Part shown: piece after piece, positions 1,757 to 41,016 of the stretch
Position numbering within the stretch: position 1 is the first letter of the stretch
Layout: the number at the start of each line of letters is the position of its first letter
From: Erysipelotrichales bacterium
Lineage (GTDB): Bacteria; Bacillota_I; Bacilli_A; RFN20; CAG-826
DNA: 42,667 bases
NCBI GenBank assembly: GCA_022508525.1
Contig: JAFLVA010000011.1
Location: 1 to 42,667, forward strand
Reading direction: 5' to 3'
Translations under genes and position numbers: made by a program
The notes under the pieces: model-generated
Told to the model about the DNA's origin: nothing
Seen by the model: only the letters and a program-made list of their open reading frames with translations
Database searches by the model: none

Positions 1757-1851
1757 TTGCATATAAAATTTAACAATAAAGCACAACGTAATTTATGGTA
1801 AAATATTTGCTTTTAATCTTTTGTTTTTTCAAGTAGAATACGAAAAAATCT

Positions 1852-2015
1852 AATAGAAGAAAGTAAGTCATTTCTTCAAGTCATTTAAAAAAATATTGAG
1901 TAAAATATGCAAAATTGAATATTTCGTTTTTTGTTGAATTGTTTTGCATTATTACTCAATTTTTGTTTTAAAAAATTTTTAAAGACAAGAAAGAAATGAT
2001 TAAACAATAACAAAG
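1852..2015 (+). repeat. Structured leader element, copy 1
   Basis: A 164-bp element, roughly 80-85% identical by eye to 3500-3663. It contains an outer inverted repeat (AGTCATTTCTT at 1866-1876 against AAGAAATGATT at 1991-2001). An inner imperfect stem pairs TTGAGTAA and TGCAAAA with TTTTGCA and TTACTCAA, followed by a T-rich tract. A competing 5' hairpin is GAAGAAA against TTTCTTC. In this copy the position of the start codon of copy 2 reads ATA, and homology stops just after it, so no gene follows directly. It lies in the 411-bp gap before hipA, whose remainder is AT-rich with only a TATAAT-like -10 at 2117-2122. Confidence 0.75.
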
Positions 2016-2167
2016 ATAATGAGACAATTTTAATATTAAATTATTGAATAGGCGATTATAGACTTTAATGAACATAATTGATAAAGATTAATTTATAAAA
2101 TCCAAAGTTTATATGTTATAATAAATGCACAATTTGTGATAAGTATACATTGAGCGGAGACAAAAAA

Positions 2168-3475
2168 ATGGCATCACTAGAAGTAAGATTTAAAAATAAA
2201 AAAATAGGAGTAATATCTTTAGAGAATGGTTCTAAAGTGTGCCATTTTGAGTACGATAAGAATTTTATAAATAGTGGTATTGAATTATCTCCTTTTATGA
2301 TGCCTATTTCTAACAAAGTGTCCTCATTTAAAGACTTAGATTATGAAACTTTTAAAGGATTGCCTGGGTTATTTGATGGATCATTACCAGACAAATTTGG
2401 AAGTTTAGCTTTTGATACTTGGCTTAAAATGAAAAATATCAATAAAGAAAATTTTAATATATTAGATTGGCTACGCTTTACTAGTAATCGTGGAATGGGT
2501 GCATTAGAATATTATCCGGCTTTAGAAAATGTTTCTTCATTATCAAAAAAATTAGTGTTAAATGATTTAGTGGATTTTGCAAATAAAGTTTTAAATGACA
2601 AAGAACATGCTTTAACAAAAGATGATGAAGAAGAAATAGAAAATATCATTAATGCATGTTGTTTTGCAGGTGGAGCACGCGCTAAAGCAATAGTAGCGTA
2701 TAACAAAGAAAACGATGAATTTAAATCCGGACATATTGATGTAGGTGAAGGATATGAATACTTTATTCTAAAACTAGATGGAATTAAAAATAACAAAGAT
2801 AAAGAAGATGCTGATAAATCAGAGTTTACAAGAATCGAATATGCTTATTATCTTATGGCATTAGATTCGGGAATTAATATGATGGAGTCAAGACTTTATA
2901 AAGATGGGAAATATTATCACTTTATGACTAAAAGATTTGATCGCTACGTCAAAGACGGAGAAATGCAAAAGATACATATGCAAACACTATGTGATATGAT
3001 GCATTATGATTTTAATACACCGCGAATTGTTAGCTATGAGGAAGTAGCAAACATTATAATTAAATTAGAAAAATCTAATAAAAATATCGAACAATTTTAT
3101 CGCAGAATGGTCTTCAATGTAATTACAAGAAATCAAGATGATCATCTTAAAAATATTTCATTTATAATGGATCAAAAAGGTAATTGGTTATTATCGCCAG
3201 CATATGATGTTACATTTGCCTTTAATCCAAACGGATTTTGGACATGTGAACATCAAATGATAATTAACGGAAAAACCAAAGATATTACTTTATATGATTT
3301 AATATGTTCTGCAAAATCAATGGGAATTGATGCTTTAAAAGCGAAAAAAATAATTACTGAGATAAATAATGTCGTATCAAATTGGAGCAAATATGCAAAA
3401 TCCGCTTATTTGAGTGATGAAACTATTAATGAAATAGAAAGTAAATTCGTATTTCTACTAGATGAATGCTTGTAA
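2168..3475 (+). CDS. hipA: HipA-family serine/threonine kinase (toxin-type)
   Basis: A 435-residue HipA-like kinase. Residues 1 to about 100 form the HipA N-terminal domain (SPFMMPISNK, GLPGLFDGSLPDKFG). The Gly-rich nucleotide loop is G168-G-A-R-A-K173. The catalytic segment R321-N-Q-D-D-H-L-K-N329 matches the RNxDxHxxN signature, with Asp324 as base, and S343-P-A-Y-D347 supplies the metal-binding Asp. All key residues are present, so it looks active. In the best-studied case HipA phosphorylates glutamyl-tRNA synthetase; the target here is unknown. ATG 2168 is preferred over an upstream TTG because GGAG lies 8 nt before it. No hipB-like HTH gene is adjacent, which is unusual. A structured repeat lies on each side (1852-2015 and 3500-3663). 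Confidence 0.88.
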   Translation: MASLEVRFKNKKIGVISLENGSKVCHFEYDKNFINSGIELSPFMMPISNKVSSFKDLDYETFKGLPGLFDGSLPDKFGSLAFDTWLKMKNINKENFNILDWLRFTSNRGMGALEYYPALENVSSLSKKLVLNDLVDFANKVLNDKEHALTKDDEEEIENIINACCFAGGARAKAIVAYNKENDEFKSGHIDVGEGYEYFILKLDGIKNNKDKEDADKSEFTRIEYAYYLMALDSGINMMESRLYKDGKYYHFMTKRFDRYVKDGEMQKIHMQTLCDMMHYDFNTPRIVSYEEVANIIIKLEKSNKNIEQFYRRMVFNVITRNQDDHLKNISFIMDQKGNWLLSPAYDVTFAFNPNGFWTCEHQMIINGKTKDITLYDLICSAKSMGIDALKAKKIITEINNVVSNWSKYAKSAYLSDETINEIESKFVFLLDECL

Positions 3476-3499
3476 TATATTTGTGACATGTTAAAATTT

Positions 3500-3663
3500 A
3501 ATAGAAGATAGTAAGTCATTTCTTCAAATCATCTAATAAATGATTGAGTAAAATATGCAAAATCGAATATTTCATCATTTGATGAGTTGTTTTGCATAAT
3601 TACTCAATTTTTTTGTTTTTAAATATTAACTGATAAGAAAGAAATGATGAAATAATGACAAAG
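3500..3663 (+). repeat. Structured leader element, copy 2, upstream of the nuclease gene
   Basis: The second copy of the element at 1852-2015, of the same length. The outer arms are 3514-3524 (AGTCATTTCTT) and 3639-3648 (AAGAAATGAT). The inner hairpin runs from about 3544 to 3609, with an apical CATC-ATTT-GATG loop, and ends in a long T-run, so it resembles an intrinsic terminator. The purine-rich AAGAAAG that would serve as ribosome site for ATG 3655 lies at the 3' outer arm. A 5' hairpin (GAAGATA with TTTCTTC) would compete with the outer stem. The layout is that of an attenuator or translational switch; this is inference. Confidence 0.75.
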
Positions 3664-4218
3664 GTAAAACGTGAATATACTAATTGCAAAATTGATAAGC
3701 TGGATAAAGAACAATTAGAAGTTTTAAGAAAAGTTTTTCTAAAAGAAAAACAAAAAAAAGCGGAAAATATAAGAGCTTATCAAAATATAGTTAAATCCTC
3801 TGGAAGTAAAAAGTTTGATGTCGATAAGCGTGTTTTAGTTAAATTGAATCAGAATAAAATTTATACAGATTTTAAAGGAAGAAAGGTTAAAATACGTGAT
3901 TATGACATGCAAGGAAATACAGGTGCTGAGCATATTGCTCAAGCAAAGCACCAATTTAAAGAAGAAGATATAGTAAAAATTGGTAATGCATTAGCAGGCC
4001 CAAATAAGTATATTGAAACAGATTTAAAAAAAGGTAATCTTTATATTCTAAATGGTGTATTTGGTATTAATAACAATATGCAGTATTTAATTGTTGCTGT
4101 AGGTGTTGGTAAGAAAGACAGGAACACGATTAAAACTGTATATTTAACAGATGATGATAATTATAAAGAATTAATAAACAAGTATGGAAAAACAAAAAAA
4201 CACGCGATGCGTGTTTAA
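3655..4218 (+). CDS. Probable BECR-fold (PBECR-like) RNase toxin
   Basis: A 187-residue protein. Residues 1-60 are a charged helical N-terminus. Residues about 70-187 resemble phage-type Barnase-EndoU-ColicinE5/D-RelE (PBECR) nuclease domains: a His-rich helix (AEHIAQAKHQF, His93 and His99), then EEDIVKIGNAL, a GPNKYIETD turn, and three strands (NLYILNGVF, YLIVAVGV, IKTVYLTDD). I recognise the pattern, not a specific family, so the call is tentative. The start ATG 3655 has only a weak purine-rich site, which sits at the stem of the structured leader just upstream. The last codons overlap the terminator of a convergent antisense RNA (4194-4318). The combination suggests an RNA-controlled toxin; a phage-derived orphan is the alternative. 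Confidence 0.45.
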   Translation: MTKVKREYTNCKIDKLDKEQLEVLRKVFLKEKQKKAENIRAYQNIVKSSGSKKFDVDKRVLVKLNQNKIYTDFKGRKVKIRDYDMQGNTGAEHIAQAKHQFKEEDIVKIGNALAGPNKYIETDLKKGNLYILNGVFGINNNMQYLIVAVGVGKKDRNTIKTVYLTDDDNYKELINKYGKTKKHAMRV

Positions 4219-11282: not shown

Positions 11283-12389
11283 ATGGCCTCTTTATTTGAT
11301 TATTTAACGAAATACAAAAATACTTCTTTTGCTGAAGAACCTATCACAGAAATCGATCGACTAATTCTTGCGGAATTAGCCTATTTAAGTTATGAAAAAT
11401 TGAAAATAAAGTCATTTATATATCTGAAAAATATTGCTAATGAAATTGAGACATTAACCATAGATATTTTTGAAAAAAAGCGCCACAAAACACTATTTGA
11501 GGAAGTAATTAATTCTAAGCGCTTTGGCATGCTTGAAATTGGAGAAGTAGAGGCGAAAACATCAGATAATGTTCAATTTTGTGCGATTACCTTTAGAGTT
11601 GATTCTAGTTATTATATAGTATTTCGTGGGACAGATTTATCCATCTCTGGTTGGAGAGAAGATTTAGAGTTAGGGGTTTATCGTAAAATTCCATCTTATG
11701 ATTATACGTTGAGTTACACTATAAGACTTTTAGATTTATATACTGGATGTTTTGAGTTAATTGGACATTCTAAGGGTGGAAATATTGCGTTTTTCATTGG
11801 CTCAGAATTGATTGAAAAATATTCGGATAAAATTGTTAAAATTACTAATTTTGACGGACCGGGATTTAATTATGATATTTTTGAAAAAATTAGAGGTGCT
11901 GAGCACTTTAATAAATTTTTAAAATATATTCCAAAAGATGATGTTGTAGGATTAATTTTGGATAGTTGTGATAATTATAATGTTGTTGACTCTGCATATT
12001 TTGGAGTTATTCAGCACATTATGTTCTTTTGGCAAGTTGAAGATTCACATCTAAAAAGAGTGGATAATATCTCAGTTTTATCCAAAATTTATAGTAAAGC
12101 CACTATTGATTGGATTTCGTCATTGAGTTTTGAAGAAAAACTCAAAATTCTTAAATTGTTCGATGAGTTTTTTGCAAATGCTGAAGTACATAATTTAAAT
12201 CAATTAAAAGAAAAAATACCACAAAAAATGATGAAATTTATTGCCTCTTATCATGGTTTTTCTTTTGAAGATAAAAAAATGCTGATTAAATTATCAGTGA
12301 GAATGATTAAATATTATATTGATCATTCATTAACTGAAATAGAAGGTAAAATAGCAAAAGAACGAAAGAATTTAATCGAAAAACGTTAA
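11283..12389 (+). CDS. DUF2974 (Mbeg1-like) α/β-hydrolase
   Basis: A 368-residue cytosolic protein (no signal peptide or membrane helix) of the DUF2974/Mbeg1-like family. The α/β-hydrolase core is visible: the oxyanion-region strand YYIVFRGTD, then FELIGHSKGGNIAFF with the nucleophile elbow G161-H-S163-K-G165. Asp in ITNFDGPGF and Asp/His residues further on are candidates for the triad. Family members are lipase-like, but their substrates are not established. The N-terminal MASLFDYLTKY is the typical opening of the family. ATG 11283 has AAAGGA 9-10 nt upstream. It is monocistronic. Confidence 0.9.
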   Translation: MASLFDYLTKYKNTSFAEEPITEIDRLILAELAYLSYEKLKIKSFIYLKNIANEIETLTIDIFEKKRHKTLFEEVINSKRFGMLEIGEVEAKTSDNVQFCAITFRVDSSYYIVFRGTDLSISGWREDLELGVYRKIPSYDYTLSYTIRLLDLYTGCFELIGHSKGGNIAFFIGSELIEKYSDKIVKITNFDGPGFNYDIFEKIRGAEHFNKFLKYIPKDDVVGLILDSCDNYNVVDSAYFGVIQHIMFFWQVEDSHLKRVDNISVLSKIYSKATIDWISSLSFEEKLKILKLFDEFFANAEVHNLNQLKEKIPQKMMKFIASYHGFSFEDKKMLIKLSVRMIKYYIDHSLTEIEGKIAKERKNLIEKR

Positions 12390-12554
12390 TTTTAATAAAA
12401 AAATGCATTTTAACTAGTCGATTTTTAAGAATTATCGATTTGTTTCTATTTGCTTACAATGCGATAACATCGGAGTAAATTCTTTATTTGCCATCTTGAC
12501 TATGAAAATACTTTCAATTAAAATGAAAAAGTTAATGAAAGTGATGTGAAAATT

Positions 12555-13550
12555 ATGGAAAATTTAAAAAATCGTGTAACAATTTATGAAGTTGCAAAAG
12601 TGTCAGGCGTTTCACTTGCTACTGTATCAAGAGTTATAAACAATAGCGATATTGTCTCCAAAAAGACTAAAGATAAAGTTAATGCTGTAATTAAAAAATT
12701 AGGTTATAAGCCATCGGCATTGGCACAAGGTCTTGCTACATCAAAATCAACAACAATTGGTATTGTTATTCCTAGTGCAAATTATGTTTACATTTCTAAC
12801 ATGCTCAGTGGTATGACAGACAAAGCCAAAGAATTGGGCTACAATTTGCGTTTGTTTACGACATCACACAACAGAGAAGAAGCCGTAAAAGTTATGGAAG
12901 GTGTCATTACTTCGCACGTTGATGGTGCGATTATTTTTGATGACGAATTAGAAAACGAAGAGTTAATGCAAATTGCATCATACGCTGTTCCACTTGTTGC
13001 TATCAATAATGACATTGAGGCATCAAATGTTGGATGTATTCATTTCGGTTATGAACATAATATTCGAAATATTGTAAATGAGTATTTAAAGCAACCTAAT
13101 AAAGAGATGTATTTCTTACATTCTCATAATGCTGGTAGATTACTTGCAAGAATTGAAAAGGCGTTTGTGGAAACTCATATTCAAAATAATGCAAATTATG
13201 GAATCTTATCATGTAATGATTCATATTCTAAAACATACTCTGACTTCAAAGTCTTCTTTGAATCTACAAAAAAAGGATATTTCTTAACTTATCGTGATTC
13301 TTTAGCTGCTGCAATTATGAATGCTGCAATTGACTCGGGATTAAGAGTGCCAGAAGATGTTGAAGTATTATCATTAATTGGTACAAAATATGCTCAAATT
13401 TTGAGACCACAAATTTCATGCATGCATATTGATTTATATAGTATCGGGGCAAAGGCAGTAGAAATGCTTGCAAATATTATGAATCAAACAGAATGTGAGA
13501 AACATTTAAAGATTGCTTCAGAATTTATTAAACGTAGTACAACTTTATAG
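12555..13550 (+). CDS. ccpA: LacI-family regulator, CcpA-like
   Basis: A 331-residue LacI/GalR regulator. The N-terminal HTH (TIYEVAKVSGVSLATVSRVINN) and hinge helix (KPSALAQGLATSKS) are complete, followed by the periplasmic-binding-like core beginning TIGIVIPSANYVY. The RVTIYEVAK opening and the location beside tyrS-rpsD match ccpA in B. subtilis, where CcpA with HPr-Ser-P controls carbon catabolite repression. The effector domain is rather divergent (short loops, no RPxxxP-type core motif I can confirm), so CcpA identity rests on synteny and the HTH. ATG 12555 was chosen over the in-frame GTG 12546. A gene-specific LacI regulator (38482) lies elsewhere in the window. Confidence 0.7.
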   Translation: MENLKNRVTIYEVAKVSGVSLATVSRVINNSDIVSKKTKDKVNAVIKKLGYKPSALAQGLATSKSTTIGIVIPSANYVYISNMLSGMTDKAKELGYNLRLFTTSHNREEAVKVMEGVITSHVDGAIIFDDELENEELMQIASYAVPLVAINNDIEASNVGCIHFGYEHNIRNIVNEYLKQPNKEMYFLHSHNAGRLLARIEKAFVETHIQNNANYGILSCNDSYSKTYSDFKVFFESTKKGYFLTYRDSLAAAIMNAAIDSGLRVPEDVEVLSLIGTKYAQILRPQISCMHIDLYSIGAKAVEMLANIMNQTECEKHLKIASEFIKRSTTL

Positions 13551-13578: not shown

Positions 13579-13584
13579 TAATTT

Positions 13585-13795
13585 AAAGCTAAGAAAAAGA
13601 TAGTAGTATTAATTAGTTTTGTAGAGAGTCTCTGGTTGGTGAAAAGAGATGAATGAGTTAATATGAATACACTTTGGAGCTATATGATTAAAAGTCATAT
13701 CGTTAATGTGCGTTAAACATAAATGAGGTAGATATTATCTACGAATAAAGGTGGTACCACGATTAAGTCGTCCTTTGATTAGGATGACTTTTTAT
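13585..13795 (+). promoter_or_regulatory. T-box leader of tyrS (tRNA-Tyr sensing)
   Basis: The antiterminator core AAAGGTGGTACCACG lies at 13747-13761. The specifier is TAC (13668-13670), a tyrosine codon, in the sequence GAATACACTTTGG. The terminator pairs AAGTCGTCCT (13765-13774) with AGGATGACTT (13781-13790), followed by a T-run. Uncharged tRNA-Tyr would induce tyrS. Confidence 0.93.
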
Positions 13796-26844: not shown

Positions 26845-27063
26845 TAAAAAAAGCGCCCTAACATAAGGACGCTAATATGCGCGGTACCACCTTAATTCAC
26901 ATTTAAAAAATAAATGTGCCCTTAAGAACTGTTAACGCCAGCAACGTTTTGCTTATTTCGCAAAATGCTCCAAAGTGGTTTTCTTAACTGCTTTATAGAA
27001 ATATTGCACCAATTTATTTCCTCTCTAAATAAAGTAAGGTTAAGAACATGTCTTTTTCAACGC
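26845..27063 (-). promoter_or_regulatory. T-box leader of thrS (tRNA-Thr sensing)
   Basis: On the minus strand the antiterminator core AAGGTGGTACCGCGC lies at about 26893-26879. The specifier is ACC (26979-26977), a threonine codon, in AAAACCACTTTGG. The terminator pairs AGCGTCCT (26873-26866) with AGGGCGCT (26859-26852), followed by a T-run. The promoter is TTGACA (27098-27093), 17 bp, TATTAT (27075-27070). Confidence 0.93.
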
Positions 27064-27109
27064 ATTAATATAATAATCTACTTAAATAGTATTGTCAAAT
27101 AAATATAAT

Positions 27110-30792: not shown

Positions 30793-32055
30793 ATGGAATA
30801 TATGAGTAATTATGATTTTTATGAAGTCCGTTTTGGGAGTATTCTATCCGATTCCGACAGAAAAGTTTTGATAGATTTATATCAGCCGATTGTTGGCGCT
30901 GGAGCAATAGCCTTATTTTTCAAATTATGGTCAGATGCTGAAAATGATCGTGAAAAAGGTTTTTCTTCAATTGATAAATTATTGAATAGTATGCAAATGA
31001 CAACTGGGGATCTTTTATCACAAAGAAGACGTCTTGAGGCATTAGGACTAATTAAGACTTACCAAAAAGATATAGGTGAAGGAAAACGCTGTTTTATGCT
31101 TTGCCTTTATGCTCCAAAGCAACCAAGAGAATTTTTCGACGATCCTTTTTTCTCGGGAATTTTAACTAAATATATTGGCGAAAAAGATGTTCAAAAAATT
31201 GCTTCGATTTATAAGATTAGAATCGATACTAAGGACTATGTTGAAGTAACAGCTACCTTTGGTGAAGTGTTTTTAAATGATATAAATTCGTTAAATAGCT
31301 CTAGTTCAAAAAAACTTGGAGATTTAAAAGGAAGAACAACTGGAAATATTTATACGAAATTTGATGGAGATAAATTTGTTTCAATCTTAGTTAACCAATA
31401 TTTCTTATCTAAAGAATTTTTGACTAAAGAAGAGATAAATCACCTAGCAAAAATTGCTTCAATTTACGGAATTGATGAAGATACTGCAGCAAAATATATT
31501 GAATATTATTGCGATTATACATTGAAACATGGCGAAAGATTAGATGTTTATAAATTGACTGAAACATTTAAAAATCTCAATGAGTATAGCAAAATAATGC
31601 CAAGAAAAACTAAAAATGCATCAAAAAGTGCAAGTGATGGCAAATACGCAGAACTCATTAAATTAATGGAAGACACACCTGCAATTAAGTATTTAAGTTA
31701 TTTGCAAAATAATACAGCACCATCACAAGCAGATTTAGAATTAATTGAATATTTGGCGACAAATTTTAATTTATCTAATGGGGTTATTAATGCTTTAGTT
31801 AGTTATACATTAGAAGTCAAACAAAATACTTTACCAAGAAAATATGTGGAAAAAGTTGCTGCTTCATTAGTGCGTGAAGGTGTAACAAGTGTTATTGAGG
31901 CCTTGAATTATTTGAATAAAGTAAATAAAAATAATAAAAAGATAAAAGAGAAAAAAGAAATCCATGTTGAGAAGAATAAAGAAAGATTCTTTGATAACGA
32001 AAACGAAGTTGTAGAGTTCAATCCGGATTTAGAGGATGATGACAACGATGAATAA
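30793..32055 (+). CDS. dnaB: Replication initiation and membrane attachment protein DnaB
   Basis: A 420-residue DnaB (Bacilli type) with two DnaD/DnaB-like regions. The N-terminal winged-helix part (SDRKVLIDLYQPIVGAGAIALF) is followed by a C-terminal DDBH2-type segment (LISYTLEVKQ-like: ALVSYTLEVKQNTLPRKYVEK). It acts with DnaA, DnaD and DnaI to load the replicative helicase at the origin and on restarted forks. It is not the helicase called DnaB in E. coli. The C-terminus is charged and disordered. It overlaps dnaI by a few bases, indicating translational coupling. Confidence 0.9.
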   Translation: MEYMSNYDFYEVRFGSILSDSDRKVLIDLYQPIVGAGAIALFFKLWSDAENDREKGFSSIDKLLNSMQMTTGDLLSQRRRLEALGLIKTYQKDIGEGKRCFMLCLYAPKQPREFFDDPFFSGILTKYIGEKDVQKIASIYKIRIDTKDYVEVTATFGEVFLNDINSLNSSSSKKLGDLKGRTTGNIYTKFDGDKFVSILVNQYFLSKEFLTKEEINHLAKIASIYGIDEDTAAKYIEYYCDYTLKHGERLDVYKLTETFKNLNEYSKIMPRKTKNASKSASDGKYAELIKLMEDTPAIKYLSYLQNNTAPSQADLELIEYLATNFNLSNGVINALVSYTLEVKQNTLPRKYVEKVAASLVREGVTSVIEALNYLNKVNKNNKKIKEKKEIHVEKNKERFFDNENEVVEFNPDLEDDDNDE

Positions 32056-36309: not shown

Positions 36310-36843
36310 ATGGAATTAAAAGGATCTAAGACTGAAAAGAACTTGATGGCTGCTTTTGCTGGCGAATCACAAGCAAGAAATAAATATACCTATTTTGCAA
36401 GTGTAGCTAAGAAAGAAGGATATGAACAAATAGCAGCAATCTTTGAAGAAACTGCAAATAATGAAAAAGAACACGCTAAAATGTGGTTTAAAGAATTAGG
36501 TGGCATTGGTGATACAATGACTAACTTAAAAGAAGCTGCAAGTGGTGAAAACTATGAATGGACAGATATGTATGAAACTTTTGCTAAAGAAGCAGAAGAA
36601 GAAGGATTTGTCGCTCTTGCATTTAAATTTAGAGCAGTAGCTAAAATCGAAAAAGCTCACGAAGAAAGATATTTAAAATTATTAAAGAATGTCGAAATGC
36701 AAGCAGTATTTGAAAAGAGTGAAGAAACAATGTGGGAATGCCGCAACTGTGGTCACTTAGTAATTGGTAAGAAAGCACCTCAAGTTTGCCCAGTATGTGC
36801 ACATCCTCAATCATATTTCGAAGTTAGAAAGAACAATTATTAA
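36310..36843 (+). CDS. rbr: Rubrerythrin
   Basis: A 177-residue peroxide-scavenging non-haem iron protein. The four-helix diiron domain has Glu ligands in [25 protein letters not shown], and [13 protein letters not shown]. The C-terminal rubredoxin-like domain carries WECRNCGH and VCPVCAHP, the Cys4 iron site. It reduces H2O2 to water with electrons from reduced rubredoxin-type partners and marks an anaerobe. AAGGAG precedes ATG 36310. It is followed one base later by a superoxide reductase gene, so the pair detoxifies superoxide and then peroxide. Confidence 0.97.
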
Positions 36844-36844
36844 T

Positions 36845-37210
36845 ATGAGATTTTTTAAATGTGCTAAATGCGGCACTATTTTGCCAATAGCAGAAGATGT
36901 TGATTTAAGTGCTAAGTGTGGCGATTTTGTTGAAGTCAGCCCAAATACAACTGAAGCAGCAGTAGAAAAACACGTACCTGTTGTTAAAGTTGAGGGAAAT
37001 ATTGTTAAAGTTACAGTTGGAGAAGTATTGCATCCAATGCAAGATGCTCATTATATCGGATGGATTATGCTTCAAACTAAATTTGGAAATCAAAGAAGAG
37101 TATTAAAACCTGGTGATGAACCAGTAGTAGAGTTTGCTATTCTTCCAGAAGATGAAGTTATCCGTGTAATTAGTTACTGTAATTTACATGGCCTTTGGTC
37201 AACAAAATAA
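36845..37210 (+). CDS. Superoxide reductase (desulfoferrodoxin), centre I degenerate
   Basis: A 121-residue desulfoferrodoxin-like protein that reduces superoxide to peroxide. The catalytic Fe(His4Cys) site is intact: Glu41-Lys42-His43, His63, His69, Cys112 and His115. The N-terminal desulforedoxin-like part has Cys6, Cys9 and Cys25, spaced as in the C-x2-C-x15-CC site, but the fourth position is Gly26, so centre I probably does not bind iron as FeS4. ATG 36845 starts one base after the rubrerythrin stop without a clear ribosome site, which implies translational coupling. The longer in-frame extension upstream lies inside rubrerythrin. Confidence 0.95.
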   Translation: MRFFKCAKCGTILPIAEDVDLSAKCGDFVEVSPNTTEAAVEKHVPVVKVEGNIVKVTVGEVLHPMQDAHYIGWIMLQTKFGNQRRVLKPGDEPVVEFAILPEDEVIRVISYCNLHGLWSTK

Positions 37211-37224
37211 TTGGTTGAAGTTTT

Positions 37225-37253
37225 AATGGCGAGTTAATTCTCGCCATTTTTTA
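37225..37253 (+). terminator. Terminator of the rubrerythrin operon
   Basis: AATGGCGAG (37225-37233) pairs with CTCGCCATT (37240-37248), followed by a T-run. Confidence 0.93.
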
Positions 37254-37273
37254 TTAATCGTGTTAAATATATG

Positions 37274-37322
37274 GAAATCGGTTTCAAAAGCCCTTTGAAA
37301 ACGCTTACTTTAGTGTTATACT
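37274..37322 (+). promoter_or_regulatory. Promoter and LacI-type operators upstream of the GH30 gene
   Basis: The -10 is TATACT (37317-37322) and a -35 TTGAAA lies at 37295-37300, 16 bp upstream. TGAAAACGCTTACT (37296-37309) fits the catabolite-response (cre) consensus except at the last base and overlaps the -35. A second CG-centred dyad, GAAATCGGTTTC, lies about 20 bp upstream near 37274-37285. Together they suggest repression by the CcpA-like protein and/or the LacI protein encoded at 38482. Confidence 0.65.
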
Positions 37323-37397
37323 TAATTTAATTAAAAATTTAGGAGATTTTATTTAGTAATTAAATTACTTTTTAAAGAAGAAGGACTAAATTATAAT

Positions 37398-38477
37398 TTG
37401 GGACGATTAACAATTGGATCTTGTGATTTTTCCACTTGTTCATATGATTACGCTCATTCGCTTGATTGTCATGATTTTAATATTGATTACGAAAAAGAAA
37501 ATATAGACATCTTATTACAAAGAGCATTGGACATCAAAGAAATGACATTATTTGCAGCGCCATGGTCACCACCAGTGCAATTCAAAACTACTGATGATAA
37601 AAATCATGGTGGAAAGTTAGATAAAACATATTATCGTAATTATGCCAAATATCTATGTAAATATGTTGAAGCCCAACAAACTCGTGGAATACCTTTAAAG
37701 TATATTACGATACAAAACGAGCCTGAAACAACGCAAACTTGGGAATCTTGTATATACAATGAAGAAGAGGAATTGAATCTTGTAAAAACTTTCCATGATG
37801 AAAGTAAAAATTATAATTTCAATGTTGATATTCTACTTTGGGATCATAATCGAGATGTGTTGCCTCGAAGAGCAGAAAACTATAAAGCTGCTGATTCAGA
37901 GTTCATGAAATACACTAAGGGATTTGCCTACCATTGGTATGATGGAGACAAATGGGATAATCTAAGCAAAATCCATGAACTATATCCAGATTGTCTATTA
38001 GTATTTACTGAAGGTTGTATTGAACTATTGAGTTTAAACGCAGATGATCCTTCAAGCGCAATTGGTACAATGAACAATGCATTTAGATATGCTCGCAATT
38101 ATATATGTGATAGTTTAAATTATTCAAATGGTTTTATTGATTGGAATTTATTACTAGATGAAAAGGGTGGACCAAATCATGTTGGTAATTTCTGTGAAGC
38201 TTTAATTCAATTTGATACAAATAAAAAAGAATTAATCATTAATCCAAGCTTCCATGTTGTAAAACATTTTGCGCATTTTATCAAACCAAATGCTTATCGT
38301 ATTGACATTCAAAATAAAACTGATATGTTAATAACGAGCTATTTAAATCCCGACAAGGAAATTGTTGTTGTATTTTTAAACGAAGGAGAAGAAAAACAAG
38401 AAGTAATAGAAGTTAGAGGTAAGAAATATTGTATGAAATTACCATCTTTATCTATTTCAACATGTGTTTTCAAATAA
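37398..38477 (+). CDS. GH30 glycosidase (glucosylceramidase-like), N-terminally truncated
   Basis: Retaining GH30 enzymes cleave β-glucosides or β-xylosides. Both catalytic residues are present: acid/base Glu108 in IQNEPETTQTWESC and nucleophile Glu205 in VFTEGCIE. Also seen are the family segments GRLTIGSCDFS, FAAPWSPP, and the C-terminal β-strands (KEIVVVFLNEGEE). Relatives are about 440-490 residues; this starts at a TTG (359 residues) in the middle of the conserved EEGLNYNLGRLTI region. Homology continues upstream (KLLFKEEGLNYN) to about 37360, but no start codon exists there and a stop lies at 37332. AGGAG at 37341-37345 has no start codon behind it (ATT, then TAG). About 80-100 codons look deleted. 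Confidence 0.8.
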   Translation: MGRLTIGSCDFSTCSYDYAHSLDCHDFNIDYEKENIDILLQRALDIKEMTLFAAPWSPPVQFKTTDDKNHGGKLDKTYYRNYAKYLCKYVEAQQTRGIPLKYITIQNEPETTQTWESCIYNEEEELNLVKTFHDESKNYNFNVDILLWDHNRDVLPRRAENYKAADSEFMKYTKGFAYHWYDGDKWDNLSKIHELYPDCLLVFTEGCIELLSLNADDPSSAIGTMNNAFRYARNYICDSLNYSNGFIDWNLLLDEKGGPNHVGNFCEALIQFDTNKKELIINPSFHVVKHFAHFIKPNAYRIDIQNKTDMLITSYLNPDKEIVVVFLNEGEEKQEVIEVRGKKYCMKLPSLSISTCVFK

Positions 38478-38481
38478 AATT

Positions 38482-39504
38482 ATGGTTACAATTTATGATA
38501 TTGCTAAGCACTGTAAATGCGCACCATCGACAGTGTCTAAAGTTCTTAATGGTTATGAAGGAATAACACCAGAAACAAAAGAAAAAGTGAAAATGGCTAT
38601 TAAAGAGTTAAATTATATTCCAAACATTGGTGCAATTTCACTTTCTAAAGCCAAATCACATAATATTGGTATATTATCTTATTACGATAGTAATATTTCT
38701 ACTTTGAATCATGCATTCTTTGTTGATATTTCTCATCATTTCCAAGATGCATTAAATGCAAAAAAATATGATATTTTATTCGTATCACGTAATGTTTTAG
38801 GTAAAGAAGAAACATTTTATCGCAATGCAAAAAGTAGAAACATCTCTGGAGTATTGCTATATGGTGATATGAATCAAAAAGAAATGATTGAAATGATGGA
38901 GGGAGACATTCCATGTGTTTCCTTTGATTATTTAGGTGACTTACCTGTAAGCAGTGTCTCTTCAGATAACGCTAAATTAATGAGTGACTTAACGGAATTC
39001 GTTCTTGAGAATGGTCATAGAAATATAGCCTATATTTCTGGTGGTAAGACAAGCGCAGTTAGTGATGTTCGATATATGGCATTTTATAATACACTGAAGA
39101 AATATAATATTTCTTGGGACGAAAGTAGATATTACGAAGCAAAGTTTAAAAATGCTGAAAGCATGCGTGAACTTGTTAAGAAGATCTTGACTGAAGAAAA
39201 TCGTCCAACAGTTTTGATGTGTCCAGATGATTATAATGCTGCAACTGCAATTCAAGTAATAAAAGAATTGGGCCTGCGTTGTCCTGAAGATGTATCTGTC
39301 ACAGGATTTGATGGTGTGGAGATATCAAAATACACAACACCAGTTTTAACAACTGCTAAACAAGATAGTGAAAAAATTGGACAAGCATTATCAGATTTAT
39401 TACTAGAAAAATTAAATAATTCATCAATAAGTATCAAAAGGGTATTGATTCCTGGTACAATTGTAATAGGTGAATCAGTTTATAATTTAAATAAAAATAG
39501 CTAA
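38482..39504 (+). CDS. LacI-family transcriptional regulator
   Basis: A 340-residue regulator: HTH (TIYDIAKHCKCAPSTVSKVLNG), hinge (NIGAISLSKAKSHNIGI), and a ligand-binding core with the typical segments FVLENGHRNIAYISGG, VLMCPDDYNAATAI, and VSVTGFDGVEISKYTTPVLTT. It probably binds a sugar and controls the adjacent GH30 and MFS genes. ATG 38482 lies 4 bp after the GH30 stop with no Shine-Dalgarno site, so translation is probably coupled. The terminator is at 39503-39535. Confidence 0.94.
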   Translation: MVTIYDIAKHCKCAPSTVSKVLNGYEGITPETKEKVKMAIKELNYIPNIGAISLSKAKSHNIGILSYYDSNISTLNHAFFVDISHHFQDALNAKKYDILFVSRNVLGKEETFYRNAKSRNISGVLLYGDMNQKEMIEMMEGDIPCVSFDYLGDLPVSSVSSDNAKLMSDLTEFVLENGHRNIAYISGGKTSAVSDVRYMAFYNTLKKYNISWDESRYYEAKFKNAESMRELVKKILTEENRPTVLMCPDDYNAATAIQVIKELGLRCPEDVSVTGFDGVEISKYTTPVLTTAKQDSEKIGQALSDLLLEKLNNSSISIKRVLIPGTIVIGESVYNLNKNS

Positions 39505-39535
39505 GCGGATGCCAATATGCATTCGCTTTTTTAAT
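39503..39535 (+). terminator. Terminator of the GH30-lacI operon
   Basis: AAGCGGATGC (39503-39512) pairs with GCATTCGCTT (39519-39528), with one G-U pair, followed by a T-run. The 5' arm abuts the lacI stop codon. Confidence 0.9.
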
Positions 39536-39627
39536 TGTTTCAAATAACAAAAAATTGATTTTATAAAATTTAGAATATGTATAATTACGCGAAGAATAAA
39601 AAAACAATTTTAATTAATTTGAGTCCT

Positions 39628-39663
39628 AATAGATTTGTAAAATCTATTCTTATTTGCTATATT
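39628..39663 (+). promoter_or_regulatory. MFS gene promoter with overlapping dyad
   Basis: TTGTAA (39635-39640), a 17-bp spacer, and TATATT (39658-39663). An inverted repeat, AATAGATTT (39628-39636) and AAATCTATT (39640-39648), covers the -35 and is a candidate operator. Confidence 0.6.
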
Positions 39664-39681
39664 TAATTATGGAGAATGCAT

Positions 39682-41016
39682 ATGGATCAAATTAATCTAA
39701 AATTAAATTATAAGCGTACGTTTATTTTAGGTATTACCTTTTTTACTATATTAATGTTATGGCAAATGTATAATTATTATTGTCCTTTGTTTTTAAATGA
39801 CTTGTTAACATCAACTTATGGAGATGGAGACTATAATTATATCGTTGGTATTATCATGGCTATGGATAATGTGCTAGCTTTGTTCTTATTGCCACTATTT
39901 GGAAGTTTGTCTGACAAAACGCGTTCTAAACTTGGAAAGAGAACGCCATTTATTATTGTTGGTACTGTTGTTTCGCTAATAATCTTTCCATTTATTCCAT
40001 TTTTCTATGCCATAAACTCCTTAGCTGGCGTAATAGTTTCAATGGGATTGATTCTTGTATTCATGCAGATGTTTAGAAACCCTGCAGTAAGTTTAATGCC
40101 TGATGTTACACCAAAGCCATTACGTGGAACTGCCAATGGCATTATAAATTTTGTCGGCTATATTGGGGCGATTTTTGCTGGTGCCTTGCAAATGATTGGT
40201 ATATTTACAATTAAAGGTGCACCCAATCCAATGTTTTTAATAATCCCTTTTGCTTTTACGTCTGTTTTAATGATTTTGTCGCTTATAATTCTTATTTTAA
40301 AAGTAAAAGAAAATAAAATCGCTAAAGAGATGAAAGAAGAAATGGAACTTGGTGAAATGTTAGCAGAGACTGAAGCAGCTACAAAATATGACCACAGGTT
40401 AACAAAGCAAGATAAAATTAACTTAATTTTATTGATAATTTCCATATTTTTATGGTTTATGTCATTTAATGCTGTTGAAACATTTTGGTCTACTTATGGG
40501 ACGAAAGTAATGAATGTTGGATCTAATTCAATTGCTACTATCGTTTTGACAATTGTTTCAATGATTACTTTTATCCCGGGTGGTAAATTGGCAAATAAAA
40601 TTGGACGTAAGTGGTCAATTGTAATTGGCCTTGCATGCATGGTATTTGCTTTAGGTGGATGCTATATAATTTCCTTGACTCCATTAAAAACAGTGCTTCA
40701 AATTTATATTGCTTTTTTTGCGATTGCGGGTATTGGTTGGGCTTTAATTAATTTATCATCATATCCGATGGTGGTAGAAATGTCTGATTCTAGTAATGTT
40801 GGTAAATATACTGGTTTATATTATACATCTTCAATGTTTGCACAATCTATCACACCAATTTGTGTCGGACTTTTGATGGATTTTTTAGGATATGAATCTT
40901 TATTTATGTATTCAACTATATTTATGATTCTTGCATTGATAGTGTTTATATTTATCAAAAATGTGCGTAAAGCGCCAATTGAAAATAAAAAAGGTTTTGA
41001 GAATTTTGATAATTAG
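39682..41016 (+). CDS. MFS transporter, GPH/SUT-like sugar permease
   Basis: A 444-residue permease with about twelve membrane helices. The first loop has GSLSDKTRSKLGKRTPFI, the MFS motif A as found in GPH and sucrose-type carriers; the second half has a matching GGKLANKIGRKWSI. The central cytoplasmic loop is charged (KEMKEEMELGEMLAETEAAT). It probably imports a disaccharide or glycoside with a cation, possibly linked to the GH30-lacI operon just upstream. ATG 39682 lies 7 nt after GGAG; the ATG two codons before it is too close to that site. The substrate cannot be read from sequence. Confidence 0.9.
   Translation: MDQINLKLNYKRTFILGITFFTILMLWQMYNYYCPLFLNDLLTSTYGDGDYNYIVGIIMAMDNVLALFLLPLFGSLSDKTRSKLGKRTPFIIVGTVVSLIIFPFIPFFYAINSLAGVIVSMGLILVFMQMFRNPAVSLMPDVTPKPLRGTANGIINFVGYIGAIFAGALQMIGIFTIKGAPNPMFLIIPFAFTSVLMILSLIILILKVKENKIAKEMKEEMELGEMLAETEAATKYDHRLTKQDKINLILLIISIFLWFMSFNAVETFWSTYGTKVMNVGSNSIATIVLTIVSMITFIPGGKLANKIGRKWSIVIGLACMVFALGGCYIISLTPLKTVLQIYIAFFAIAGIGWALINLSSYPMVVEMSDSSNVGKYTGLYYTSSMFAQSITPICVGLLMDFLGYESLFMYSTIFMILALIVFIFIKNVRKAPIENKKGFENFDN

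Follow-up and report, generated by a model that had tools for sequence, protein, structure and literature searches.

A GH30 frame that begins at codon 64

Why a GH30 gene should lie directly behind a promoter and a Shine-Dalgarno sequence and have no start codon is the question raised by the locus examined here. The window, by which we mean the whole stretch of 42,667 nucleotides that was analyzed, has a GC content of 30% (30.0%) and is contig C3 of a draft genome (G000) of 1.47 Mb in 52 contigs. It was compared with three congeners (G001, G002, and G003), two of which (G001 and G003) carry GH30, and with 29 GH30 homologues, comprising those from 28 genomes besides G000 (E <= 1e-60, among 224 genomes of the family) and L005, which came from a scan of genome contigs. 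The other relative returned by that scan, L004, appears to be a G001 contig, with identical listed genes, and a scan of viral contigs for GH30 relatives returned none. No account of a truncated GH30 was found by title among the literature matches listed.

The AGGAG Shine-Dalgarno sequence (37341 to 37345, plus strand) is followed by ATT (37351 to 37353) and then by TAG (37354 to 37356), as a preliminary description of this DNA had stated. The GH30 frame, which is not that of the ATT and TAG, runs open to 38474 after a stop at 37332. The TTG at 37398 is the earliest ATG, GTG, or TTG codon in it, which agrees with the earlier statement that no ATG precedes the GH30 homology. Recognizable GH30 sequence starts at 37356, 10 nt past AGGAG and not 15 to 50 bp later as had been proposed, and the VIKLLF encoded there pairs with VIDLLF of L005. 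The homology does begin mid-domain, as described: the match to the GH30 barrel profile PF02055 (169.8 bits, cutoff 23; E = 1.1e-49) runs from profile position 26. The C-terminal domain PF17189 is matched with 35.8 bits (cutoff 22), and the QNEPE and FTEGC motifs are intact; we take the catalytic glutamates of GH30 to be those in the NEP and TEGC motifs. By alignment and Pfam, the remnant corresponds to codon 64 onward of the congener gene and extends, with its stop codon, from 37356 to 38477 on the plus strand.

Alignment with two full-length relatives, the check that had been proposed, places the start of the window GH30 at column 64, and therefore 63 residues have been lost. The claim that the N terminus is missing is thus borne out: the G001 and G003 genes are full length, as are the relatives in the family except for one at a contig end. 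A GxGGxx motif lies upstream of the matched part in 28 of the 29 homologues, the 29th (L017) being the one that starts at a contig end. Two homologues (L009 and L025) lie in long open frames of 572 and 605 residues between stops, in which some 200 residues precede the match. When G000 was searched with the N-terminal 80 residues of the G001 protein for a missing N terminus elsewhere, one match of 34% was obtained (E = 0.1, contig C51). With this as the best match in a genome that is 92% complete, a displaced N terminus (inversion or phase variation) is unlikely.

In a model of the full-length G001 GH30, built from a four-row alignment, residues 1 to 63 form strands at 2 to 7, 10 to 16, 27 to 29, and 41 to 45, a helix at 47 to 54, and the start of a helix at 58 to 69. 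Strand 41 to 45 would, by our own assignment, be barrel strand 1, and the loss is accordingly predicted to have removed this strand together with helix 1 and three other strands. The window GH30 does not have a complete (beta/alpha)8 barrel; strand 1 (GFGGAF) and the N-terminal strands are absent. Searched with Foldseek, the full-length model has SrfJ (2wnw), human glucosylceramidase (1ogs), and the beta-1,6-glucanase BT3312 (5ngk) among its best matches. The window protein is like these in its matches to the barrel and C-terminal sandwich and in QNEPE and FTEGC but differs from them in the absence of the first 63 residues, including barrel strand 1. Mean pLDDT and pTM were 75.2 and 0.79 for the full-length model and 64.4 and 0.63 for the truncated protein. 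The truncated model has long weak stretches at 221 to 262 and 264 to 307, and the full-length model is weak at 285 to 300 and 336 to 343, overlapping this region. The comparison of the two models is only suggestive: it sets different proteins side by side on shallow alignments, and the full-length model shares part of the weak region.

A promoter block that heads a different gene in the congeners

The left flank consists of rubrerythrin and desulfoferrodoxin genes (36310 to 37210, plus strand; domain matches) and is held in common with G001 contig C7 at 88% nucleotide identity. A terminator-like hairpin (37225 to 37248, plus strand) stands 3' of the desulfoferrodoxin gene and 5' of the promoter; one was found versus 0.1 expected in shuffled sequences, and the fold of the region around it (37210 to 37260) has a z score of -5.5. 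The first LacI-type operator, GAAATCGGTTTC (37274 to 37285, plus strand), lies 5' of the -35 hexamer within a run of 18 bases (37272 to 37289) that is identical in the window, G001, and G003. It is followed by a promoter-like TTGAAA-16-TATACT (37295 to 37322, plus strand) that has TG before the second hexamer and aligns with TTGAAA...TATAAT of G001 and G003. Six promoter-like sites, this one among them, were present in the 300 bases scanned, compared with 1.5 expected from shuffles. The second LacI-type operator, GAAAACGCTTAC (37297 to 37308, plus strand), overlies the -35 hexamer and the spacer and agrees at 9 of 12 positions with the copy in G001 and G003, GAAAGTGCTTTC. The CGCTTAC form of this box is also found at one other promoter of the long locus of each congener that is described below. 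The promoter, two LacI-type boxes, and AGGAG that had been described as intact were all found, in a block conserved in G001 and G003. However, the boxes and the promoter lie outside the interval of 37332 to 37420 to which they had been assigned, and box 2 departs from the congener copy at 3 of its 12 positions.

In a DNA search of the genus, the block from 37272 to 37345 was located on G001 contig C7, about 1 kb past the same desulfoferrodoxin gene, and 37215 to 37337 on G003 contig C9. Identity is 80% over 75 nt with G001 (37272 to 37346; E about 1e-11) and 79% over 77 nt with G003 (37261 to 37337; E about 8e-11), and all three aligned sequences have TGGAAATCGGTTTCAAAA and a TTGAAA...TATAnT promoter. 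Judged by this similarity, which is beyond chance, the predicted promoter upstream of GH30 is real. In G001 and G003 the block is followed not by GH30 but by a putative lipoprotein gene (named by eye from its N terminus; no Pfam match), whose ATG comes next, and the counterpart of AGGAG is the Shine-Dalgarno sequence of this first gene of the congener locus. Because the same block heads the lipoprotein gene of the long locus in both congeners, the promoter, boxes, and AGGAG do not seem to belong to GH30, and the proposal that GH30 had kept its promoter is not supported. A 37-nt stretch elsewhere in the same genome (L076; G000:C45:97378-97414) matches the promoter region at 37300 to 37336 with 89% identity.

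Exact GAAANCGNTTTC sites number 3, 5, 0, and 5 in G000, G001, G002, and G003, respectively, versus 5, 6, 7, and 4 for a reversed-pattern control, and the genome totals are not clearly above that control. Three of the five sites in G001 and three of the five in G003 are inside the long locus, at corresponding places before three locus genes. The site at 37274 is alone at the window locus, and the other two in G000 are on contigs C16 and C49. A conserved palindromic operator is present at the putative target promoter of the LacI family regulator (GAAATCGGTTTC is kept in G001 and G003), and the LacI protein encoded in the window may bind putative operators of the GAAANCGNTTTC type.

The long beta-glucan locus and its absence from the window

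In G003 the long locus lies on a single contig of 40.6 kb (C9), with its genes all on the same strand. In order, these encode first a lipoprotein, GH16, a phosphatase-like protein, a membrane protein, MoxR, DUF58, two VWA proteins, and several lipoproteins. Next come genes for a solute-binding protein with two permeases, two lipoproteins, GH16, an ABC ATPase, three membrane proteins, GH30, LacI, a GH149-like protein, an MFS transporter, a PLPC-like protein, and a phosphatase. These labels come from Pfam and NCBIfam runs on the G001, G003, or window copies, apart from 'lipoprotein' and 'membrane protein,' which were assigned by eye. G001 has the same gene order on contigs C7 and C10, which we infer to be neighbors because the solute-binding protein gene is split across their ends. 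The long locus is probably not one operon or transcription unit, because internal genes, that for the solute-binding protein among them, are also preceded by LacI-type boxes. Within the glucan locus of both congeners (L079 on G001 C7 and L070 on G003 C9), the MoxR-DUF58-VWA block includes a BatA-type domain and has a LacI-type box upstream of the preceding gene, which makes it unexpected company for a sugar locus.

The name GH149 is only a best guess because the G001 protein scores 94 of 1150 bits against NF058639, far below the cutoff, and a marginal 23.3 bits against GH94_b-supersand (cutoff 23). Bacterial GH149 clusters are described (PMC5827456) with an ABC transporter and LacI or AraC in Proteobacteria and with GH3/GH30_1 and GH16/GH17 in Bacteroidetes. 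The congener loci are like these clusters in combining GH16, an ABC transporter, GH30, LacI, and a GH149-like protein, whereas the window has only the GH30 remnant, lacI, and the MFS gene.

At the promoter-GH30 joint of the window, everything from the lipoprotein start region through GH30 codon 63 is absent. The joint between the locus leader and the GH30 interior lies at 37346 to 37356. In G003 the corresponding interval, from the first ATG (at 184) to the GH30 Val codon (at 31,707), is 31,523 bp (31.5 kb), and in G001 the first ATG and the first retained GH30 codon are about 34.4 kb apart (about 24.1 and 10.2 kb on the two contigs) plus an unsequenced gap. A deletion of about 80 to 100 codons, as previously suggested, does not describe this joint: 63 codons of GH30 are absent, and the join is a locus-scale fusion from which 31.5 kb or more of the congeners' sequence is missing. 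The set of GH149, GH16, and transporter genes that marks a GH149/GH16 beta-glucan utilization locus is not found at the window locus.

The right flank of lacI, MFS, PLPC-like, and phosphatase-like genes is, like the left one, common to the window and G001. The lacI family gene (38482 to 39504, plus strand) encodes a helix-turn-helix domain (PF00356) and a periplasmic-binding-like domain (PF13377). Three lacI homologues of genus g30 (L053, L054, and L055, from G160, G171, and G162) have one in-frame TAG each within the matched stretch. Comparison with G001 and G003 showed that both have a GH149-like gene of about 3 kb in the position of the lacI-MFS gap (39505 to 39675), and the gap includes a hairpin and T run that by eye resemble those 3' of the G001 GH149-like gene. 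The MFS transporter gene (39676 to 41016, plus strand; 88% amino acid identity to G001 and 81% to G003) is followed by genes for a PLPC-like protein (20.9 bits, below the cutoff of 26.8) and a Y_phosphatase3-family protein.

Relocation of the long locus within G000 was considered and rejected on searches that were genome-wide for the solute-binding protein, GH16, GH149, and the GH30 N terminus and that covered the window and 58.7 kb of contig C23 for the other lost genes. The genome-wide search for GH149, run with no positive control, was empty, and that for a close solute-binding protein and GH16 gave only distant relatives on contig C23 (29 to 32% and 32 to 38%). However, contig C23 carries another ABC-transporter locus, with permeases at 35 to 46% and an ATPase at 41 to 69%.

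These comparisons suggest that the window probably holds the collapsed remains of a long beta-glucan utilization locus with LacI-type boxes, with the locus leader fused to the interior of GH30 as a recent, non-functional remnant. The ancestral window lineage would have had the long locus behind the LacI-boxed promoter, with the lipoprotein gene first and GH30-lacI far downstream on the same strand. The loss would have run from the start region of the lipoprotein gene through codon 63 of GH30, and the GH149-like gene between lacI and MFS would be missing as well. A GH30 body of a different lineage probably arrived by recombination, before or together with the deletion. The transcript would now mainly serve lacI, left regulating its own promoter.

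Gene remnants made by deletion (pseudogenes) occur in shrinking bacterial genomes. The window is like them in having a 5'-truncated gene beside a shared flank, with a frame that has not decayed. It differs in that the deletion would have fused a locus's own leader to an internal gene and in that the lineage of the remnant is unlike that of its neighbors. Gene loss of this kind is ordinary, but here its extent is larger and its outcome more mosaic than the preliminary description held. It illustrates how a bacterium can lose a polysaccharide utilization locus in such a way that the promoter and the regulator stay and the structural genes between them go. It also warns against automatically assigning a well-formed promoter to the gene that follows it; an apparent truncation of 80 to 100 codons is here the edge of a difference of more than 30 kb from the congeners.

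A GH30 body probably from a different lineage

A clean single deletion does not explain everything, because the GH30 remnant is incongruent with its surroundings. The window GH30 is 62.6% identical to that of G001 and 59.4% to that of G003, and the latter two are 78.2% identical over their full length. For LacI the corresponding amino acid identities are 90.5, 77.3, and 79.3%. Over the shared GH30 columns from 80 on, the window agrees with G001 at 220 of 357, and G001 agrees with G003 at 285 of 358. A 30-row tree places the window GH30 with L005 (83/77), a grouping that is only weakly supported, and outside G001 plus G003 (100/100). The AU test rejects window plus G001 (p = 3.4e-5) and does not reject window plus G001 plus G003 (p = 0.28). 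The path distance between the window and G001 is 0.70 for GH30 versus 0.10 for lacI. Given 62.6% for GH30 against 90.5% for LacI, the GH30 body was probably replaced by recombination from a different lineage, before or together with the deletion. Pseudogene acceleration was rejected as the cause of the divergence because the window branch is not long (0.27 versus 0.36 for L005) and because, over the shared columns from 80 on, the window protein agrees with L005 at 213 of 353 and the G001 protein agrees with it at 193 of 353. The GC content of the GH30 piece (30.2% versus 30.0% for the window) is uninformative.

It is rather unlikely that replacement and deletion were a single step of homology-facilitated illegitimate recombination, a process described in bacteria (PMC3240628). 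In that case, pairing of the resident lacI region with incoming DNA that carried a foreign GH30-lacI end would have been combined with an illegitimate joint at the locus leader, so that the DNA in between (31.5 kb or more in the congeners) was lost and a headless GH30 came in. Such a pattern, homologous at one joint and illegitimate at the other, would fit the window and would account jointly for a foreign GH30 body next to a native lacI and promoter, for the truncation, and for the extent of the loss. In 75-nt steps, nucleotide identity to G001 climbs from 60% at 38400 through 77% at 38475 and 85% at 38550 to 92% at 38625. However, a donor GH30-lacI junction is not known, and no LacI-like open reading frame is evident by eye in 6.3 kb around L005. 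Fourfold sites are near saturation (identity of the window to G001 of 24/66 in GH30 and 53/113 in lacI, and of its GH30 to L005 of 20/60) and therefore can neither place a crossover nor put the window nearer to L005 than to G001. Moreover, two separate events account for the data equally.

An assembly artifact, or a join of mixed strains in a metagenome-type draft, is quite unlikely. A genome in 52 contigs at 92% completeness invites the suspicion, as does a GH30 divergence out of line with both flanks. However, both flanks are native and similarly diverged from G001, and the foreign-looking piece between them is in the right order and orientation, ends near the GH30-lacI boundary, and matches the window in GC content. 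An artifact would therefore need two faults.

Probable loss in the window lineage rather than gain in the congeners

There is little chance that the window instead preserves an ancestral compact unit of promoter, GH30, and lacI that gained the long locus by insertion in G001 and G003, so that only about 63 codons would have been lost here, near the original view of the truncation. Such a unit would suit G002, which gave no match to GH30 or MFS and none to lacI at E <= 1e-50, and the joining of G001 and G003 in the GH30 tree (100/100). However, nucleotide identity between G001 and G003 is 63 to 76% in the long locus (blocks of at least 900 nt), 77% in GH30, and 75.5% in lacI, compared with 83.5% for lacI between G000 and G001. 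The long locus, which between G001 and G003 has diverged like lacI or beyond it, was therefore probably present before the G000-G001 split and lost in the window lineage. The similar divergence of long locus, GH30, and lacI implies a shared history older than that split as given by lacI, and in G001 as in G003 the lipoprotein gene stands behind the same promoter. The lacI tree itself only mildly favors window plus G001 (88/83), and the AU test does not reject G001 plus G003 (p = 0.15). The case for a loss in G000, as opposed to a gain in the other genomes, is drawn from few genomes.

State of the remnant and translation of lacI

Under the preferred reading of a collapsed locus, the GH30 remnant would not be an active enzyme, having neither a proper start nor barrel strand 1. 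There are no stops in its 374 codons, although 210 single-base changes could make one, and a uniform neutral model puts the divergence since loss of constraint below about 0.043 per site (95%). Of the 35 columns otherwise invariant, the window GH30 deviates at 1; three of the other 29 rows likewise deviate at 1, another at 3, and the remaining 25 nowhere. The GH30 frame may thus have lost its start recently, or it may still be read, with TTG 37398 as the first conventional candidate start. The open frame and intact active-site motifs point to a recent loss, but together with the conserved lacI they are also compatible with ongoing translation of the gene from TTG 37398.

Such translation may matter for LacI, because lacI has no clear Shine-Dalgarno sequence: its ATG lies 4 nt past the GH30 stop, with no Shine-Dalgarno match longer than 3 nt. 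In G001, GGTGA lies 5 nt before the lacI ATG. Translational coupling of lacI to GH30, which had been suggested before, is plausible on these grounds. A more elaborate proposal, which we regard as very unlikely, is that one homology-facilitated illegitimate recombination removed the locus (31.5 kb or more in the congeners), brought in the headless foreign GH30, and reduced what was left to a minimal autoregulated lacI, that weak translation from TTG 37398 through the dead GH30 sets LacI output by coupling, and that the dead gene persists as a control leader.

Very unlikely, too, is that the short GH30 is a functional gene starting at TTG 37398 or at a non-canonical ATT (37359): its 374 open codons, intact active-site motifs, and 34 of 35 invariant columns kept would suit this, as would an AAGGA 12 nt before TTG 37398 (the first start codon of the full-length G001 GH30 is also TTG, with AAGGA 10 nt upstream), but the protein would be predicted to have no barrel strand 1, helix 1, or three further strands, and only 1 of 29 homologues is short, that one at a contig end. 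Moreover, TTG 37398 may be a start only by accident, because it encodes the Leu of an NLGR motif that the window protein has in common with L002 and L005.

Other features of the window

An intergenic element of about 165 nt is present in two copies in the window (1845 to 2008 and 3488 to 3657), which are 84% and 87% identical to G001 (L079:16963-17131). The second copy could form a long hairpin (z = -3.05), and 2 of 200 shuffled sequences folded as well. The elements precede a HipA-like gene (2150 to 3475) and a weakly MuF_C-like gene (3655 to 4218), and the G001 relative of the latter, 50% identical, has the element upstream as well. Two T-box leaders, at 13582 to 13778 (plus strand) and 26862 to 27069 (minus strand), score above the Rfam gathering score. 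A second LacI-family regulator gene (12546 to 13550) adjoins an Mbeg1-like gene (11283 to 12389).
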